This document shows positions 22,952 through 62,946 of a stretch of 64,000 bases of DNA, one piece after another (position 1 is the first letter of the stretch; every line of letters begins with the position of its first letter). Position numbers and translations under genes: made by a program. Where the stretch lies: assembly GCA_030922375.1 (NCBI GenBank), contig JAVEPB010000057.1, positions 1 to 64,000 of the forward strand. The letters run 5' to 3'. Below the pieces are notes generated by a model. That model did not search any database. It worked only from the letters and a program-made list of their open reading frames with translations, and had not been told where the DNA came from. Origin of the DNA: a bacterium. Its GTDB lineage: Bacteria; UBA8248.

Positions 22952-24079
22952 TCACCCTTCGGCATAAATTCGCTCATATTCGGTGACCACGGCGGGAAGA
23001 TTAAACAAATCGCCGACACGCCGGCGCGCCGCCTCCCCTAATTTTCTCCGGCCTTCCGCTCCCATCACGACAAATTCCCCCATGGCCTCTGCAAGGGCTG
23101 CCGGGTCACCCGGACTCATGATTCGCCCGGTTTCTCCGACGATATGTTTTGAATCGCCGACATCCGTCGCCACACATGGCACCCCGCAGGCCATCCCTTC
23201 CCCGATGACATTTGAAAATCCCTCTCCAAACACCGAGGGGAGACAAAGGAAATCGAAACCCGGCATGAGCGCCGGGATGTCCCCCCGCTCCCCGAGCAGG
23301 TGGAACCGCCCTTCCAGGCTTAGGTGCTCTATATTCCTTCTCAACTCGGCGTTCTCCAGCGTCACCCCTTTACCGGCGAGTACGAAGTGGACCTCCGGAT
23401 ATTTTTTGCCGACAAGACCTGCGGATTGGAGAAATCCGGCATGACCCTTCATCGGATCATACCGCGCAATCATTCCGGCTAAGACCGAATCTGGAGGCAC
23501 CCCCAATTCACCGCACAGCTTCGATTTCGCTCCCTCGTCCGGCCGAAATTCCTCTAAATCGAATCCATTGAATATCACCCGCCAACTTTTCGGAGAGTAT
23601 CCGCGGAGGATATGCTGCTCCCGCCCGGCCTCGGAATTGACGATCACCATTTCGGGGAGCGAAGAGAGGCGGGCCAAAATCGGCACAAGCCATGAAGATA
23701 AGCGCGAATAATGGGTCATTTCCATATCCGAGCATCGGACGTTCCAAAATATCCGCCGGACGCCGGCGAGCTTGCCCGCTATCAAGCCGAACAGATCCGC
23801 ATGATAGAGCCAGGTTTGCAGAACATCGGGCTTTTCTTTCTTTAGTATCCGGACAAAGCGAATGAGCGAGCGAAGCGAGGGGCGGCCCCGCTTCATCCCG
23901 AGCGTGAAAAGGGGAATCCCCGCCTCCTTGATGCACTTCCCCAGGGAATCCTCACCCGTCATGGAAACGACCGAATGCGATACCTTCCTCCGGTCAGAGG
24001 CGGAAACCAGCTTCACCAACATCCACTCGGCGCCTCCGGTTTCAAGTTCGGTAATAACGTGGAAAACTTTTTTCATCAA
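22952..24079 (-). CDS. Glycosyltransferase family 4
   Basis: HVITELETGGAEWMLVKLV...VFGEGFSNVIGEGMACGVPCVATDVGDSKHIVGETG. Confidence 0.92.
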   Translation of the reverse strand: MMKKVFHVITELETGGAEWMLVKLVSASDRRKVSHSVVSMTGEDSLGKCIKEAGIPLFTLGMKRGRPSLRSLIRFVRILKKEKPDVLQTWLYHADLFGLIAGKLAGVRRIFWNVRCSDMEMTHYSRLSSWLVPILARLSSLPEMVIVNSEAGREQHILRGYSPKSWRVIFNGFDLEEFRPDEGAKSKLCGELGVPPDSVLAGMIARYDPMKGHAGFLQSAGLVGKKYPEVHFVLAGKGVTLENAELRRNIEHLSLEGRFHLLGERGDIPALMPGFDFLCLPSVFGEGFSNVIGEGMACGVPCVATDVGDSKHIVGETGRIMSPGDPAALAEAMGEFVVMGAEGRRKLGEAARRRVGDLFNLPAVVTEYERIYAEG

Positions 24080-25197
24080 AGAGCGCTCAGTGCGCGATGC
24101 GTAGTCTCTATCAGGCGGTGGCGGCTGAATCGGCCGACAATTCTCTCCCGCACTTTCGTGGACAATTCCTGACCATTTTTTTCAATCGCGCCTATCAAGG
24201 TGCAAAGACCCTCTGCCAGGGCCTCGGAGTCTCCCGGCGGAACCACAACGCCTGTATCGCCTACAATGCGGGCGGAATCCCCCACATCCGTCACCACGCA
24301 CGGAACCCCGCAGGCCATCGCCTCGGCTACCGCATTCGAAAACCCCTCCCCAAATACGGACGCCGAGCACGCCACATCGAAGGCGTTATATACATCGTTC
24401 ATATCGTTTCGGGAGCCGCTCCAGACGACGCGATCATTCAGGCCCAGTTCACACGAGAGTTTAACGAGAGATTCCCGGAATACGCCTGACCCCTCTCCCA
24501 CACATACAAAAACCAGATCACTTTTCTTTTGTGCCGCCTGGGCCGCCGCGCGAAGAAAAGTCTCATGCCCCTTCATCGGGTCCAGCCTTCCCACGAGCCC
24601 AACCAACCGTGCCCCGGGGTCCAATCCCCAGGCCGCTCTCGCGGCGCTCCCTCCGGCCCGATCGGGCTGAAATCGCTCCGTGTCGATGCCGTTTGGAATA
24701 AACGTAATTTTCTCTTTTGAGAATCCACCCGTTTCAAGGCAGACGCGTCCCGCCTCGGAATTAACAATGATCGCGTCGGCCCTTCCGCTCATCAAAGACT
24801 CAAGCCGGTAGCTCAGGCGGGAGAGCCAGTCGTAATGAGACAATTCCATATTCGAGGCGCGAATCCCCCAAACAATCCTGGTGGATGGAATGAAGAATTT
24901 GATAAGACCCGTCAATATATTGGGGACGGTCAGATAGCTATGGAGGATTTGCGGATTCTCTCGGCGCACGAACCCGATCAACCGCCACAGAAAACCGATT
25001 ACATCCCATCGGCCTTTTTTCTCGAGATTGAAAACAGGTACATCCGCCGCCCGAAGCTCCTCCTCGAGTTCGTTTCCGGGATAAAACACCGCAACGACGA
25101 CCGAGACACCGCCGTCTTTCAATCCCTTCGCCAACTCGACAACCTGACGCTCGGCACCTCCATAGGAAAGCTGCTGCACCAGAAAAACAATCTTCAT
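24076..25197 (-). CDS. Glycosyltransferase family 4 (start placed at internal Met, MKIVFLVQQLSYGGAERQ)
   Basis: LVQQLSYGGAERQVVELAKGL...VFGEGFSNAVAEAMACGVPCVVTDVGDSARIVGDTG; ORF is open to 25383 but domain begins at 25197. Confidence 0.92.
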   Translation of the reverse strand: MKIVFLVQQLSYGGAERQVVELAKGLKDGGVSVVVAVFYPGNELEEELRAADVPVFNLEKKGRWDVIGFLWRLIGFVRRENPQILHSYLTVPNILTGLIKFFIPSTRIVWGIRASNMELSHYDWLSRLSYRLESLMSGRADAIIVNSEAGRVCLETGGFSKEKITFIPNGIDTERFQPDRAGGSAARAAWGLDPGARLVGLVGRLDPMKGHETFLRAAAQAAQKKSDLVFVCVGEGSGVFRESLVKLSCELGLNDRVVWSGSRNDMNDVYNAFDVACSASVFGEGFSNAVAEAMACGVPCVVTDVGDSARIVGDTGVVVPPGDSEALAEGLCTLIGAIEKNGQELSTKVRERIVGRFSRHRLIETTHRALSAL

Positions 25198-42654: not shown

Positions 42655-43194
42655 TCAATCAGCGCGAGAGCCGAGGACCTGTTCGAAAATATCGCATACC
42701 TCGCGAACGGCTCCGTAACCACCCGGCGCTAGGGTCCGGTATGCCGCAACGGAAGCGACATCGGGGTGCGCATCCTGCACAACGATGGGCAGATGAACTT
42801 TTTCCAGACAGGTCAGATCGTTCACGTCATTTCCAACGAACGCGGCCTGATCGAATGTCAATTTTCGTTCCCCGAGAATTCTTTCCAGGGCCGAGGGTTT
42901 GTCCTCGCACCCCTGAACGCACAGCACACCCAGTTTCTTGGCGCGGGCGCTCACCACCGGATTCACCTCGGTCGATATGATGACCGCCCCCACCCCAAAA
43001 CGCGCCAGCTTCGCCAGGCCGATTCCGTCCGCCCGGCTACACCGGACCGCCTCGCGGCCATCCTCGAAGACATAGACCGAGTTGTCCGTGAAAACGCCAT
43101 CGAAGTCGAATCCGACAAGGCGTACCCGGCATACCCTTTCGGCCACTTCGAGGCTTAGGGATATTCCTCCTGTCATGGCTTCACCGCGGCTCAT
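42655..43194 (-). CDS. KdsC-like HAD phosphatase (3-deoxy-ulosonate-phosphate phosphatase family)
   Basis: RLVGFDFDGVFTDNSVYVFEDGREAVRCSRADGIGLAKL; AFVGNDVNDLTCLE. Confidence 0.88.
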   Translation of the reverse strand: MSRGEAMTGGISLSLEVAERVCRVRLVGFDFDGVFTDNSVYVFEDGREAVRCSRADGIGLAKLARFGVGAVIISTEVNPVVSARAKKLGVLCVQGCEDKPSALERILGERKLTFDQAAFVGNDVNDLTCLEKVHLPIVVQDAHPDVASVAAYRTLAPGGYGAVREVCDIFEQVLGSRAD

Positions 43195-44246
43195 GCTTCC
43201 CGAACATCTTCAAACATGATGTTTTCGTCTTCATCGATCGGGCGAACGATCTCCTTGCCGATCAGATTTTCCAATTCGTAGGGAGGAAGCCCGTCCCCGG
43301 GGGATTTCAGGCATACGTCGCCTTCCTGAAGCACATGGCCGCCGGGCAGACTCCGGGACGCCACCAATTTTTTACTCATCTTATAAAGGGGGCTTTCCTC
43401 GCTTTCATATTTTCGCTTTAGGCCGTCGCCCAGCGCCACCCTGGCCCGCTTGATATCCCTGACCACCCGCCTCATTCCGTTGCCTTCCATTGAAAAGGCG
43501 TGATCGGAGCCTTTCAAGGAACGATTGAGGGTGAAATGTTTTTCAATCACCCGCGCTCCGATCACATAAGCGACCAAAGCCATTGCGATTCCGTTGTCGT
43601 GAGAAGAAAGTCCAATAACATTATCCGGAAACCGCTCGCGGTAGGTTTCGATTACCCTTAAATTCAATTCCTCGAACTCCGCCGGATAACCCGCCGTGCA
43701 CTGCATCAGGCACAAGTTCGGATTGATCGGCATCACCGTTTCATACGCCCTGACGACATCCTCCATGCTGCCCCCGCCCGTACTGACGAACATGGGCTTT
43801 TGAAATTGAGCGACGTACTTGAGGAGGGGCGTGTTTTTCAAGTCGCCCGAAGCGATCTTATACGCCGGCGCGTTCAGATCCTCCAGGAAATCGGCACTCA
43901 CAAAATCGAACGCCGTGGAAAAAAAAGTGACGCCCAATTCGCCGCAATAGCGGAAAAGCTCCTCGTACTCTTCCCGTCCGAACTCAAGCGCCTCGCGGTG
44001 TGTTCCGTAGGTGCCGCCGTAGCTGTTGCGATTATCATACGAGCTGGCGAACATCTCTTTCGTGAACAGGGTCGGGTTATCTCTCTTTTGAAGTTTTACC
44101 GCGTTAACGCCGCACTCTTTTGCACTGTGAAATAATTGTTTCGCTTTATCGAGATCTCCCTGATGGTTGTGTCCGATCTCGGCGATTATGTAACAATCGC
44201 TTTCATCGTTGATTGTAAAACCATCGACAATGAGTTCTCTTGCCAT
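43191..44246 (-). CDS. neuB: NeuB-family nonulosonate (sialic acid-type) synthase
   Basis: YIIAEIGHNHQGDLDKAKQLFHSAKECGVNAVKLQKRDN; YKIASGDL; GLSSHDNG; VIEKHFTLNRSLKGSDHAFSM; SAF domain at C-terminus. Confidence 0.92.
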   Translation of the reverse strand: MARELIVDGFTINDESDCYIIAEIGHNHQGDLDKAKQLFHSAKECGVNAVKLQKRDNPTLFTKEMFASSYDNRNSYGGTYGTHREALEFGREEYEELFRYCGELGVTFFSTAFDFVSADFLEDLNAPAYKIASGDLKNTPLLKYVAQFQKPMFVSTGGGSMEDVVRAYETVMPINPNLCLMQCTAGYPAEFEELNLRVIETYRERFPDNVIGLSSHDNGIAMALVAYVIGARVIEKHFTLNRSLKGSDHAFSMEGNGMRRVVRDIKRARVALGDGLKRKYESEESPLYKMSKKLVASRSLPGGHVLQEGDVCLKSPGDGLPPYELENLIGKEIVRPIDEDENIMFEDVREA

Positions 44247-52950: not shown

Positions 52951-54003
52951 TTATGTCTTCGGGATACCCACCTGAATAACATCCCGGTCGTCTTCCCGAA
53001 GGGCGCCCCAATCGCCGAGCTCGGGGCGAAGCGGAGCAGCCAGATCGTTTGCCCCGTGAATGCAATTTTGACAAAGCGTACCAACCAGATCGCCAGACAG
53101 ATGGCGGCGGCGAAACGAGCGAAAATGCTCCCCAGCCCAAGCCTCTTTAAGGGAAACTTCATTGAGATCCACCATAGCCAACTTGTTCTGATAGTCGTTG
53201 CAACACCCCCTGAGATATCCCTCCCGGGTGATGTTGATCTGATTGAAAGGAATATGGCAGGTGTCGGGAATGGTGGGAGAAATCGGCAAATTGAGCATTT
53301 GGCCGGCTTGGTTGGCGGCCGGGATATAAAAGATTTCGTCAACCAGATGCGTAACAGCTTTTTGGAGCGCCGGCAGGGAGGCGGCGTTCTCCGGGACCTC
53401 GACAAACGACACCGACAACCTGATCTCCTGTGGGCAGGATTTCCGGTACTCACTGACGAACGCTAAATTCTTGAGGGCTTTTTCGAAATGATCCCGGCCA
53501 TGGATTTTCTTGTAGGTTTCCCGATCCCCTCCGTTGATCGAGAATTTAATCGAATGAATTCCCGAATCCATAATGCCCTTGAACCTATTTTCGTCCCCCA
53601 GCGAACCGTTGGTCGAAAAATATATGTAACTGAAACCCAGGTCCCGGCACGTGGCGATGTGATCCTCCAGCTGCTTGCAGGCCAAGGGCTCGCTTCCTCC
53701 GTGCAACCCCACCTCGCGCACCCCGAGTTCATACGCCTGCGCAGCGATATCCTTGAACAATTCCGGGTCAATGACCTGGCTCGGCCGGGTCATCAATGGA
53801 TAGGCGCAAAAAGCGCATTTGTGATTGCAAATATTCGCTACTTCAACAAGCATGGTATTCGGAACCGGAGGAGCTTCGCTTAATACGGCATTTTCAATAG
53901 ATTCCGCATATCGATCCCAAAGCCGGCTGCTTTCCTCGACTTTTTGTCTCTCTTCAATAAGCTTGGGAAGTGCCAGGCGCTTGGGTTTTCCGGAATCGTT
54001 CAT
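52951..54003 (-). CDS. Radical SAM/SPASM-domain protein
   Basis: VEVANICNHKCAFCAYPLM (CxxxCxxC); GLHGGSEPL; C-terminal Cys-rich CHIPFNQINITREGYLRGCCNDY...CQNCIHG. Confidence 0.92.
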   Translation of the reverse strand: MNDSGKPKRLALPKLIEERQKVEESSRLWDRYAESIENAVLSEAPPVPNTMLVEVANICNHKCAFCAYPLMTRPSQVIDPELFKDIAAQAYELGVREVGLHGGSEPLACKQLEDHIATCRDLGFSYIYFSTNGSLGDENRFKGIMDSGIHSIKFSINGGDRETYKKIHGRDHFEKALKNLAFVSEYRKSCPQEIRLSVSFVEVPENAASLPALQKAVTHLVDEIFYIPAANQAGQMLNLPISPTIPDTCHIPFNQINITREGYLRGCCNDYQNKLAMVDLNEVSLKEAWAGEHFRSFRRRHLSGDLVGTLCQNCIHGANDLAAPLRPELGDWGALREDDRDVIQVGIPKT

Positions 54004-54071
54004 CCATATCTCCTTTCGGATCCAACCGGTCCGAATAGCGATCAGTTTAGATGTTCATTTCTAAAAATACT
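53900..54071. repeat. Direct repeat copy 1 (5' end and leader of intact radical SAM gene)
   Basis: Aligns with 55234-55404; 44-nt exact match 53993-54036 = 55327-55370 (GAATCGTTCATCCATATCTCCTTTCGGATCCAACCGGTCCGAAT). Confidence 0.95.
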
Positions 54072-54144
54072 TGTTTCACGATAGATGCTCAATACACGAT
54101 TGTAAACAGCGGCACTAAGGGCAATTATAAATATTTTAGGTACT

Positions 54145-55080
54145 TCATATTTTCTCACCGATGAACTCAAGGTTACCACTGCCGTATAAAATTTTACTAA
54201 TCGGATTCTCCACATGATAATGAAGAGGAGCAAAATATTTTCTGATGTTTTTCCTTTTTACGTAACGGTGCAACCTACGCGTATTGTTAAATTCATGCTT
54301 TCCATACAGACCGATTACATATTTTTCATCAATAGCCAGACGAACTGGTGCCTGGATTCCATTTTGAACGAATACACAGAAATCAAGATCAAATAGGTCT
54401 TTTACGAAAGAAAGGTCAATTTCTTCTCCTGTGAATTTCTTGGCCTCTTGAGTCATAAAAATGGCAACTTTTTCAAAATTATCCGGGTCAATATTATCGA
54501 TTAACTTCTTAAAATCCTCATTATTTCGATAATACATCCTTAATGCAGGAAAGATCGCTTCCTCAAATAACCCACCTACCAGACCAAAAACAGTATAGAG
54601 ATAGCCACCTACCTTCGTAACGCGAGCAAGTTCCGAAAAAGCAATATTCACCTCATCAATGTCATTTGGGTGGAGCATCACGCCGTGACAAGAAACGAAA
54701 TCAAAATAATTGTCTTCAAATGGGAGATCGAGAACACTACCAGTGGAAAATTTAACATCTTTTAGTGGTATGTCGAAATTTTCTAGGCTTTCTTGAGCCA
54801 CTTGAATAAAATCGGTGCCGATATCAACTCCGTGGAGTTTTCTCGCCCCGAAACGCCAGAGAGGTATTAACAACTTCGCTGTATCACCACAACCTGCATC
54901 CAGAACCCGTTTCCCCTTGAAGTAATCTGCACCGAGTCCAAAATAGTCCAGTGTAAACATATTAATGAATCTTTCCATTGCAACACGATCTTGAATGATT
55001 CTCTGATGCTGTTTGTGAAAAATCTCACGCGTTTCTTTAGAGTAATCAACCATGGTTTCTCCCATAATAAAATAGAACAT
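54145..55080 (-). CDS. Class I SAM-dependent methyltransferase
   Basis: KRVLDAGCGDTAKLLIPLWRFGARKLHGVDIGTDFIQVA...FDFVSCHGVMLHPNDIDEVNIAFSELARVTKVGGYLY. Confidence 0.88.
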   Translation of the reverse strand: MFYFIMGETMVDYSKETREIFHKQHQRIIQDRVAMERFINMFTLDYFGLGADYFKGKRVLDAGCGDTAKLLIPLWRFGARKLHGVDIGTDFIQVAQESLENFDIPLKDVKFSTGSVLDLPFEDNYFDFVSCHGVMLHPNDIDEVNIAFSELARVTKVGGYLYTVFGLVGGLFEEAIFPALRMYYRNNEDFKKLIDNIDPDNFEKVAIFMTQEAKKFTGEEIDLSFVKDLFDLDFCVFVQNGIQAPVRLAIDEKYVIGLYGKHEFNNTRRLHRYVKRKNIRKYFAPLHYHVENPISKILYGSGNLEFIGEKI

Positions 55081-55199
55081 TAAACCGGCTTTCCCCAGAT
55101 GGCCTCTTGGATAACGAAAATCTATAAAATCACTCTCATGAAGAACTCAAAAATCGCCCCTCTGCCAATCATACGCCCCACCAATGACCGTGAGACCCG

Positions 55200-55337
55200 T
55201 CAGGGAGCGCATTTTGAGGCCCAGGCAATTCTAGACTCCGCATATCGATCCCAAAGCTGGCCGCTTTCTTCGACTTTTTGTCTCTCTTCCAGCAGCTTGT
55301 TAAGCTTCAAGCGCTCGGCATTACGAGAATCGTTCAT
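55200..55337 (-). pseudogene. Truncated radical SAM 5' fragment (45 codons then stop)
   Basis: Reads MNDSRNAERLKLNKLLEERQKVEESGQLWDRYAESRIAWASKCAP*, matching the N-terminus MNDSGKPKRLALPKLIEERQKVEESSRLWDRYAES of the gene at 52951-54003. Confidence 0.9.
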
Positions 55338-55404
55338 CCATATCTCCTTTCGGATCCAACCGGTCCGAATTATAATCAGTTTAGGTGTTCATTTAAAAAA
55401 TACT
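55234..55404. repeat. Direct repeat copy 2
   Basis: See copy 1 at 53900-54071. Confidence 0.95.
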
Positions 55405-55469
55405 CGTTGAGCAATGTATCAAAAGAACGGCGCCAACTATTAGCAATCGAACCCGCCAGAGGGATTCAA

Positions 55470-56555
55470 TCAAATTTTCTTCTCTCCGGATTCTGTGCCG
55501 GAGGACGATATGTCCTCCCATCGCAATGCCGTCCCCCGTTTCATATTATTCAGTGCGTGCAGCCCGAGAACATTTGGAAGTTCCTTGGGTGGAAGTCCGT
55601 TTCCCGGACGAATCGACCGGATATTTTTCGCCGTCAACTCCTCGCCAGACGAAATATCCTCGACCACATAAATGGATCTCCTGAATATCTGATTCTGATC
55701 CTCGCTCGGTTTAATGTCGTAATTCACGCGCCCCAACGACTCCCATGCCTGGGCGCATCCATCGCAAAGCTTTTTCAGCTCCCCGGGCTCCAAAGAAAAA
55801 GCCGCGTCCGGGCCACCGTCCGACCTCTTAATGGTGAGATGTTTTTCAATTAAACACGCGCCCAATGCCACTCCAGCCACCGGCACGGCGGGGCCCAAGG
55901 TGTGGTCCGATAGCCCGGCGATTACGCCAAACTTTTCGGCGAGATCGGGGATTGTGCGCAGGTTGCTGTCCTCCACCATCGTCGGATATCCGCTGACACA
56001 ATGCAGTAGCACCAAACCACCGCATCCGTTATTTCTCGCGGTTTCCGTGGCCTCGCGAATTTCATCGAAGGTGGCCATCCCGGTGGAAATGATCATCGGC
56101 TTTCCTGTCGATGCGACCTTGGCGATCAGAGGAAGATCAATCACCTCGAATGAAGCAATTTTATACACGGGCGAATCCAGGTCTTCGAGAAAATCAACCG
56201 CCGTGCCGTCAAACGGCGTGCTAAAAACCGCAAGGCCCAGCTCTCTTCCCTTCCCGAAAAGAGCTTCGTGCCACTCCCACGGTGTGTGCGCCCATTCGTA
56301 AAGGTCGTAGAGTTTGTTCCCGTCCCAGAGCCCGCCTTCGATGAGAAATTCCGGGCCGTCATGATCAATGGTTATCGTATCGGCCGTATAAGTTTGAATC
56401 TTGACCGCATGTGCGCCGGATTTCTTCGCCGCCTCCATAATCTGAAACGCACGGTTGATATCTCCGTTATGATTTCCCGACAACTCGGCCACGATATAAG
56501 GCGGGTGCGCCGGGCCTACGAGGTGTCCGTTAATTTTGATTTCTTTCACTTTCAT
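55470..56555 (-). CDS. pseI: Pseudaminic acid synthase-like NeuB family protein
   Basis: YIVAELSGNHNGDINRAFQIMEAAKKSGAHAVKIQTYTADTITID; YKIASFEVIDLPLI; GLSDHTLG; LIEKHLTIKRSDGGPDAAFSLEP. Confidence 0.92.
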   Translation of the reverse strand: MKVKEIKINGHLVGPAHPPYIVAELSGNHNGDINRAFQIMEAAKKSGAHAVKIQTYTADTITIDHDGPEFLIEGGLWDGNKLYDLYEWAHTPWEWHEALFGKGRELGLAVFSTPFDGTAVDFLEDLDSPVYKIASFEVIDLPLIAKVASTGKPMIISTGMATFDEIREATETARNNGCGGLVLLHCVSGYPTMVEDSNLRTIPDLAEKFGVIAGLSDHTLGPAVPVAGVALGACLIEKHLTIKRSDGGPDAAFSLEPGELKKLCDGCAQAWESLGRVNYDIKPSEDQNQIFRRSIYVVEDISSGEELTAKNIRSIRPGNGLPPKELPNVLGLHALNNMKRGTALRWEDISSSGTESGEKKI

Positions 56556-61881: not shown

Positions 61882-62946
61882 TTACAGATCGATATCCGTC
61901 CATTCGATCCGGGCGCCTTTGGACTTCGCCGTCTTGAGCGTCTTTCCGACAAGCGCATCCACCTCCGAGGGAGGAATCCCGTCGCCGGGGCGTCTGTAGT
62001 CGAAATCGGACTCGGCCAACACCCTCCCCGCCTCCATATCTTCCATAGCGTGCACGCTCCGCCTGATAATCTGCCGTTTTTCTTTTTCAGCCGGATGCAA
62101 AATCCTGCGCGGCGACCCGAGCGCCTGCTCCAAGTCCCGAATGACTTGCACAAACTGCTTCGTGTCAGATGGCTCCAGCGACATGATGTGTTCGATGCTC
62201 CGCGTCGTCCTGTCCAGCGATATGGTTTTTTCCACCAGGTTCGCTCCGATTACCACAGCCGCCACATCCATGTCCCAACCCGGTGAGTGATCCGAAAATC
62301 CAATCGGAAACGCGAACATTTGCCTGAGCGACTTGATTATTCTCAGATTGATGCTATCGAGGCGTGCGGGATATCCGGAGGGACAATGATGAATAATGAC
62401 GTTTTCGTTTCCTTCTTCCCGGATAATATCGATAGCCGCCTCAATCTCTCCGATCGTGGCGTTCCCCGTATCGAACTGCAAACATAAATTCGAGCGGGCC
62501 GCTTTCCGGAGCAGCGGAACATGATTCACGTCCGCCGACGCGATTTTGATTGAATGGCACCCCAATTCGACCAGCATATCGATTTCCTCGGGAAAACAGA
62601 TCGTGGCGAAAAACGCGAGCCCGAGAGAATCGCTGTATTGTTTCAGCTCTTTCCATTCCCCCGTATTCAGCACACGGCGGCAGAGGATATCGTAGAGAGG
62701 CTCAGTAACGGTTTCGGTCGCTCCGCTTTCGCGGTCGATTAACACGTCATAACTAAAGGGAACCGATCTGTCGGCGACAAGGCGATCCGGATCGATAACT
62801 TGAAACTTTACGGCATCCGCACCGGATTCGGCAGCGCAGGCCACCAGCTTTTTCGCCGATTCCAGTCCGTCGTGCGTTGGTCCCGCTTCAAAGGTTATAA
62901 AACAAGGATGGCCATCTCCCACCGAACGGTCCCCAAATTTTACCAT
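61882..62946 (-). CDS. Third, divergent NeuB-family synthase
   Basis: FITFEAGPTHDGLESAKKLVACAAESGADAVKFQVID; SIKIASADVNHVPLL; GFSDHSPG; LVEKTISLDRTTRSIEHIMSLEP; C-terminal SAF domain. Confidence 0.88.
   Translation of the reverse strand: MVKFGDRSVGDGHPCFITFEAGPTHDGLESAKKLVACAAESGADAVKFQVIDPDRLVADRSVPFSYDVLIDRESGATETVTEPLYDILCRRVLNTGEWKELKQYSDSLGLAFFATICFPEEIDMLVELGCHSIKIASADVNHVPLLRKAARSNLCLQFDTGNATIGEIEAAIDIIREEGNENVIIHHCPSGYPARLDSINLRIIKSLRQMFAFPIGFSDHSPGWDMDVAAVVIGANLVEKTISLDRTTRSIEHIMSLEPSDTKQFVQVIRDLEQALGSPRRILHPAEKEKRQIIRRSVHAMEDMEAGRVLAESDFDYRRPGDGIPPSEVDALVGKTLKTAKSKGARIEWTDIDL

Follow-up and report, generated by a model that had tools for sequence, protein, structure and literature searches.

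A truncated radical SAM gene copy beside a methyltransferase gene of foreign composition: a probable gene-gain scar in a pseudaminic-acid locus

Downstream of pseI in a mosaic pseudaminic-acid/surface-glycan locus, a methyltransferase gene of foreign base composition stands between two diverged copies of the leader and first codons of a radical SAM gene, only one of which continues into an intact gene. We interpret this arrangement as probably the scar of a gene gain. The feature, which was found in a window of 64,000 nucleotides (the whole stretch of DNA that was analysed), is real, was correctly described in an earlier sequence-only reading and is of an ordinary kind. Here, we describe the two copies, the gene that they enclose and the explanations that compete for their origin.

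The locus and the two repeat copies

All genes involved are encoded on the minus strand, and the order in the direction of transcription is pseI, the distal repeat copy, the methyltransferase gene, the proximal repeat copy and the intact radical SAM gene. The upstream neighbour pseI (55470-56555, minus strand) encodes a pseudaminic acid synthase (NCBIfam TIGR03586 PseI, 502 bits, above the cut-off), and the cluster neighbours include, besides PseI, PseG, a PseF-like protein, a Pse methylase and WbuX. The intact gene (52951-54003, minus strand) encodes a radical SAM/SPASM protein of 350 amino acids (Pfam PF04055, E = 6.8e-19; PF13186, E = 2.4e-9), and the solved structures closest to it include BtrN. 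A literature search found no paper connecting pseudaminic acid with radical SAM genes. The locus contains three genes for NeuB-family, sialic-acid-type synthases (43191-44246, 55470-56555 and 61882-62946), of which the middle one clearly encodes PseI, while each of the outer two shares only 33% identity with it. Judged from their sequences, this set suggests the synthesis of more than a single nonulosonic acid.

The proximal repeat copy (53898-54075, minus strand, 178 bp) comprises the leader of the intact radical SAM gene together with its first 36 codons; the distal copy (55232-55408, minus strand, 177 bp) comprises the same parts of a truncated one. They are 85% identical, align with a single 1-nt indel and have exact blocks of 44, 20 and 21 nt in common. 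The direct repeats are thus present where the sequence-only reading had seen them and slightly longer than it had proposed; leader and gene start were recognized rightly, while the shared coding part amounts to 36 codons instead of about 34. The 44-nt exact core (53993-54036 in the proximal and 55327-55370 in the distal copy, both minus strand) contains both the ribosome-binding site and the start codon, and the homology begins at the gene leader and stops abruptly at codon 36. The distal copy had been called a remnant that stops after 45 codons, with which the translation of its open reading frame (55200-55337, minus strand) agrees: it reads MNDSRNAERLKLNKLLEERQKVEESGQLWDRYAES followed by 10 unrelated residues and a stop.

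Searched against its own genome, the repeat matches itself (E = 2e-98) and the distal copy (E = 8e-51), which is far above chance, and as the third-best match has only E = 0.2, there are two copies genome-wide. The repeat DNA was not found in the other 17 genomes of the phylum (18 in the search set, including the window's own), 32 nt of the exact core had no match in viral contigs, and a search for terminal inverted repeats gave no inverted match of at least 9 nt between the two ends. Elsewhere in the window, tandem 126-nt repeats (479-1234) lie within a tetratricopeptide-repeat gene (407-1375), and a 110-nt direct repeat with 73% identity (23127-23236 and 24251-24360) occurs between two adjacent glycosyltransferase genes, which are most likely paralogues.

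The enclosed methyltransferase gene and its relatives

The gene between the copies (54145-55053, minus strand) encodes a class I SAM-dependent methyltransferase of 302 amino acids (Pfam PF08241, E = 8.6e-17). Its likely start reads MVDYSKE with a Shine-Dalgarno-like GGGAGA just upstream, in a reading frame that is open to 55080. Judging by an end-to-end alignment at 33-35% identity with homologues from phosphonate clusters on rhizobial plasmids, the gene is intact. A spacer with a GC content of 0.497 (55081-55231) separates its reading frame from the remnant and is unique, as an own-genome search revealed no second copy.

The methyltransferase gene had been described as clearly more AT-rich than its neighbours, and the measured values confirm this: the GC content of 54072-55233 is 0.395 and that of the reading frame about 0.38, against 0.525 for the radical SAM gene, 0.535 for pseI and 0.528 for the window. 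At third codon positions (GC3) it has 0.35, the lowest value among the 25 genes measured, compared with 0.607 in the radical SAM gene and 0.613 in pseI; these two and nearby cluster genes span about 0.54-0.67. The gene is also the stretch of about 936 bp with the lowest GC content within the window, but regions at about 7.4-9.1 kb and at 17.8-18.2 kb come close to it (GC about 0.39-0.42), so that AT-richness alone is not unique to the methyltransferase gene and the locus as a whole is mosaic. On the basis of its foreign composition the gene looks to have been gained from outside. No second copy exists in its own genome, no orthologue was found in the other 17 genomes of the phylum, and the phage records searched gave no relative.

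In the rhizobial clusters (Mesorhizobium NZ_AP023255.1 and Sinorhizobium fredii NZ_CP023072.1) the homologous gene directly precedes an asparagine-synthase gene, which is a further likeness to the gene in the window. Unlike in the window, it is accompanied by genes for PEP mutase, an aminotransferase and a CDP-alcohol phosphatidyltransferase, and none of the window proteins scanned has a PEP mutase domain. The phosphonate-cluster setting of these closest plasmid relatives, before an asparagine synthase, is a possible hint to the class of substrate.

Relatives of the radical SAM gene are distant. The other 17 genomes of the phylum have no orthologue, only radical SAM proteins with 26-27% identity, and a search of 386 genomes, GTDB contigs, plasmids and IMG/VR likewise gave only relatives of about 20-40% identity, with a few short stretches reaching up to 54%; in those of them that were inspected, the N-terminus shows no clear match to the repeat. 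In a congener (G002), pseI is 64% identical and is directly followed by genes for a Pse methylase and a glycosyltransferase and by asnB, whereas the stretch from pseI to asnB in the window contains the remnant, the methyltransferase gene, the radical SAM gene and a gene for a 551-aa protein. This difference in gene order marks the stretch as a variable slot. The pseI neighbourhood of the congener is altogether unlike that of the window, and no allele in the phylum shows the state before insertion. A separate contig of the window's genome (C105, 4.9 kb) is over its whole length 99.7% identical to part of a contig (C77) of this congener, which belongs to another species of the genus; either the two genomes share mobile DNA here, or one of them has been affected by cross-binning.

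Divergence of the copies and competing explanations

The 36 shared codons differ at 21 nucleotides and in 10 amino acids and are free of indels and stops. The Nei-Gojobori method gives dN 0.17 and dS 0.48 over these codons (dN/dS about 0.36). When 21 changes are placed at random, a mean of 14.3 amino-acid changes is expected, 10 or fewer arise with P = 0.015, and a stop arises in 60% of the trials. Part of the divergence therefore probably predates the truncation, as far as a small sample of 36 codons with a weak dN/dS signal can tell, and the pattern suggests a time before the truncation in which both copies were functional and acquired at least some of their differences, whether in separate genomes or as a pair of intact genes. 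Divergence that is partly of the coding type speaks against a recent duplication and against a maintained recombination site. An unchanged run of 44 nt has a probability of about 0.007 if the differences are uniformly distributed, and would fit either conversion or a constraint on the translation start. Within the distal leader lies a promoter-like element, TTTAAA-17-TATAAT (55369-55397, minus strand), with 10 of 12 consensus matches; in the proximal copy, the -10 position is occupied by CGCTAT. Since about five such sites are expected by chance in the region scanned, the candidate element may at most be taken as a tentative sign that the distal leader drives transcription of the methyltransferase and radical SAM genes.

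Of the other ways in which two such copies could come about, a local partial duplication deserves the most attention, though we consider it rather unlikely. A resident radical SAM gene would have had its leader and start copied within the genome, or the methyltransferase gene would have been inserted with such a duplication, after which the upstream piece drifted neutrally. The same orientation of the copies, their distance of 1.3 kb and the single intact gene fit this course, and partial gene duplications do occur in Salmonella O-antigen clusters (PMC3715488). However, neutral drift accords poorly with 36 codons that have acquired neither stop nor frameshift and with fewer amino-acid changes than random mutation predicts, and a divergence of 15% needs an old event, yet the GC content of the methyltransferase gene is still foreign. 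That the repeat is a conserved regulatory leader serving several genes is very improbable. Although its exact core spans the ribosome-binding site and start, is longer than uniform differences would leave and has a small hairpin just upstream, the leader RNA fold is unremarkable (z = -1.2) and the homology extends 36 codons into the gene; the occurrence of only two copies in the genome and none elsewhere in the phylum largely refutes this explanation and excludes the repeat's presence at many loci, which the sequence-only reading had raised as an objection to itself. There is also little to recommend an assembly artefact in which two strain variants were joined in a draft, metagenome-type bin. 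The draft genome has 272 contigs and an estimated contamination of 7.5%, and strain mixtures can be mis-joined at repeats, but within a single 76.7-kb contig the copies differ from each other both in their flanks and in their own sequence, and a wrong join at the 44-nt core would exchange the flanks and not make a second diverged copy.

A further alternative, also suggested by the sequence-only reading, is a reversible phase-variable module. In Salmonella Typhimurium DT8/DT30, wzy is reversibly excised between identical repeats of 113 bp (attL/attR), and excised strains as well as a circular form have been seen (PMC12074656). As there, a single surface-glycan gene lies between direct repeats of about 100-180 bp, and deletion would leave one repeat: with 1334 bp excised, a radical SAM reading frame of 350 codons would persist and start 132 nt after the pseI stop, so that the computed product agrees with the proposed restoration of one intact radical SAM gene after pseI. 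The 44-bp core also exceeds the minimal identity quoted for the RecBC pathway (23-27 bp; 44-90 bp for RecF), but efficiency drops as identity falls (PMC12074656), and with 15% divergence and a longest identity of 44 bp a frequent switch is unlikely. Unlike the wzy repeats, those described here are only 85% identical, lie across a gene start, with the reading frame broken in one copy, and have no known excised form. The own genome holds neither an excised nor a second copy, and the window proteins scanned include no recombinase, transposase or integrase domain, which together with the missing terminal inverted repeats also leaves the region without the marks of a transposon- or integron-type cassette. 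With no second allele and divergence at least partly of the coding type, the proposed phase variation is not supported, and we regard re-insertion and excision of the methyltransferase gene in the manner of wzy as highly unlikely. The same low standing is given to a slow version, in which homologous recombination between the leaders would add or remove the glycan methyltransferase without ever costing the locus its one functional radical SAM gene, and the operon would be driven by the distal promoter whenever it contains the cassette. Population data in which both states appear would make the locus a glycan-modification switch; nothing here points there.

A probable gene gain that left a stump

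A gene-gain scar accounts for the boundaries of the repeat, which coincide with a gene start, for its occurrence in two copies only and for the foreign composition of the enclosed gene. A truncated copy of 45 codons stands beside its intact homologue in a glycan cluster, and the gene inserted between them has a GC3 of 0.35 compared with about 0.6; the gene gain proposed from the sequence has in this respect held up. The geometry would fit an ancestor in which pseI was directly followed by a radical SAM gene. Foreign or allelic DNA may then have brought in the methyltransferase gene, probably along with a leader and a radical SAM gene of its own, and have been joined by recombination inside codon 36 of the resident gene. 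The outcome would be a stump of 36 codons, a short junk joint, the methyltransferase gene and one intact radical SAM gene. As no donor or pre-insertion allele was found, we infer this order of events, and the radical SAM gene is native-like in composition and thus gives no independent sign of having arrived with the methyltransferase gene. The two leaders would accordingly be homologous because both head radical SAM genes, and not as recombinase sites; the remnant would be the stump left by a radical SAM gene that was either older or allelic, and today a dead reading frame whose leader may still supply a promoter for the genes downstream. Deletion of the methyltransferase gene by RecA-type recombination is geometrically possible and should be rare.

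Comparable scars are documented in Salmonella O-antigen loci, where gene remnants and partial gene duplications occur (wzy remnants in groups B1/D1, a duplicated part of wzy in D3; PMC3715488) and where a broken sugar-locus gene likewise lies beside functional genes after gain or replacement. The remnant described here differs in that it derives from a radical SAM gene and lies in a locus for pseudaminic acid, that no IS or H-repeat remnant is seen beside it and that sister alleles from which the steps could be reconstructed are lacking. Read as the scar of a gene gain, the region would illustrate, on a small and legible scale, how a modifying enzyme enters a surface-sugar locus while the stump of the displaced gene stays behind.
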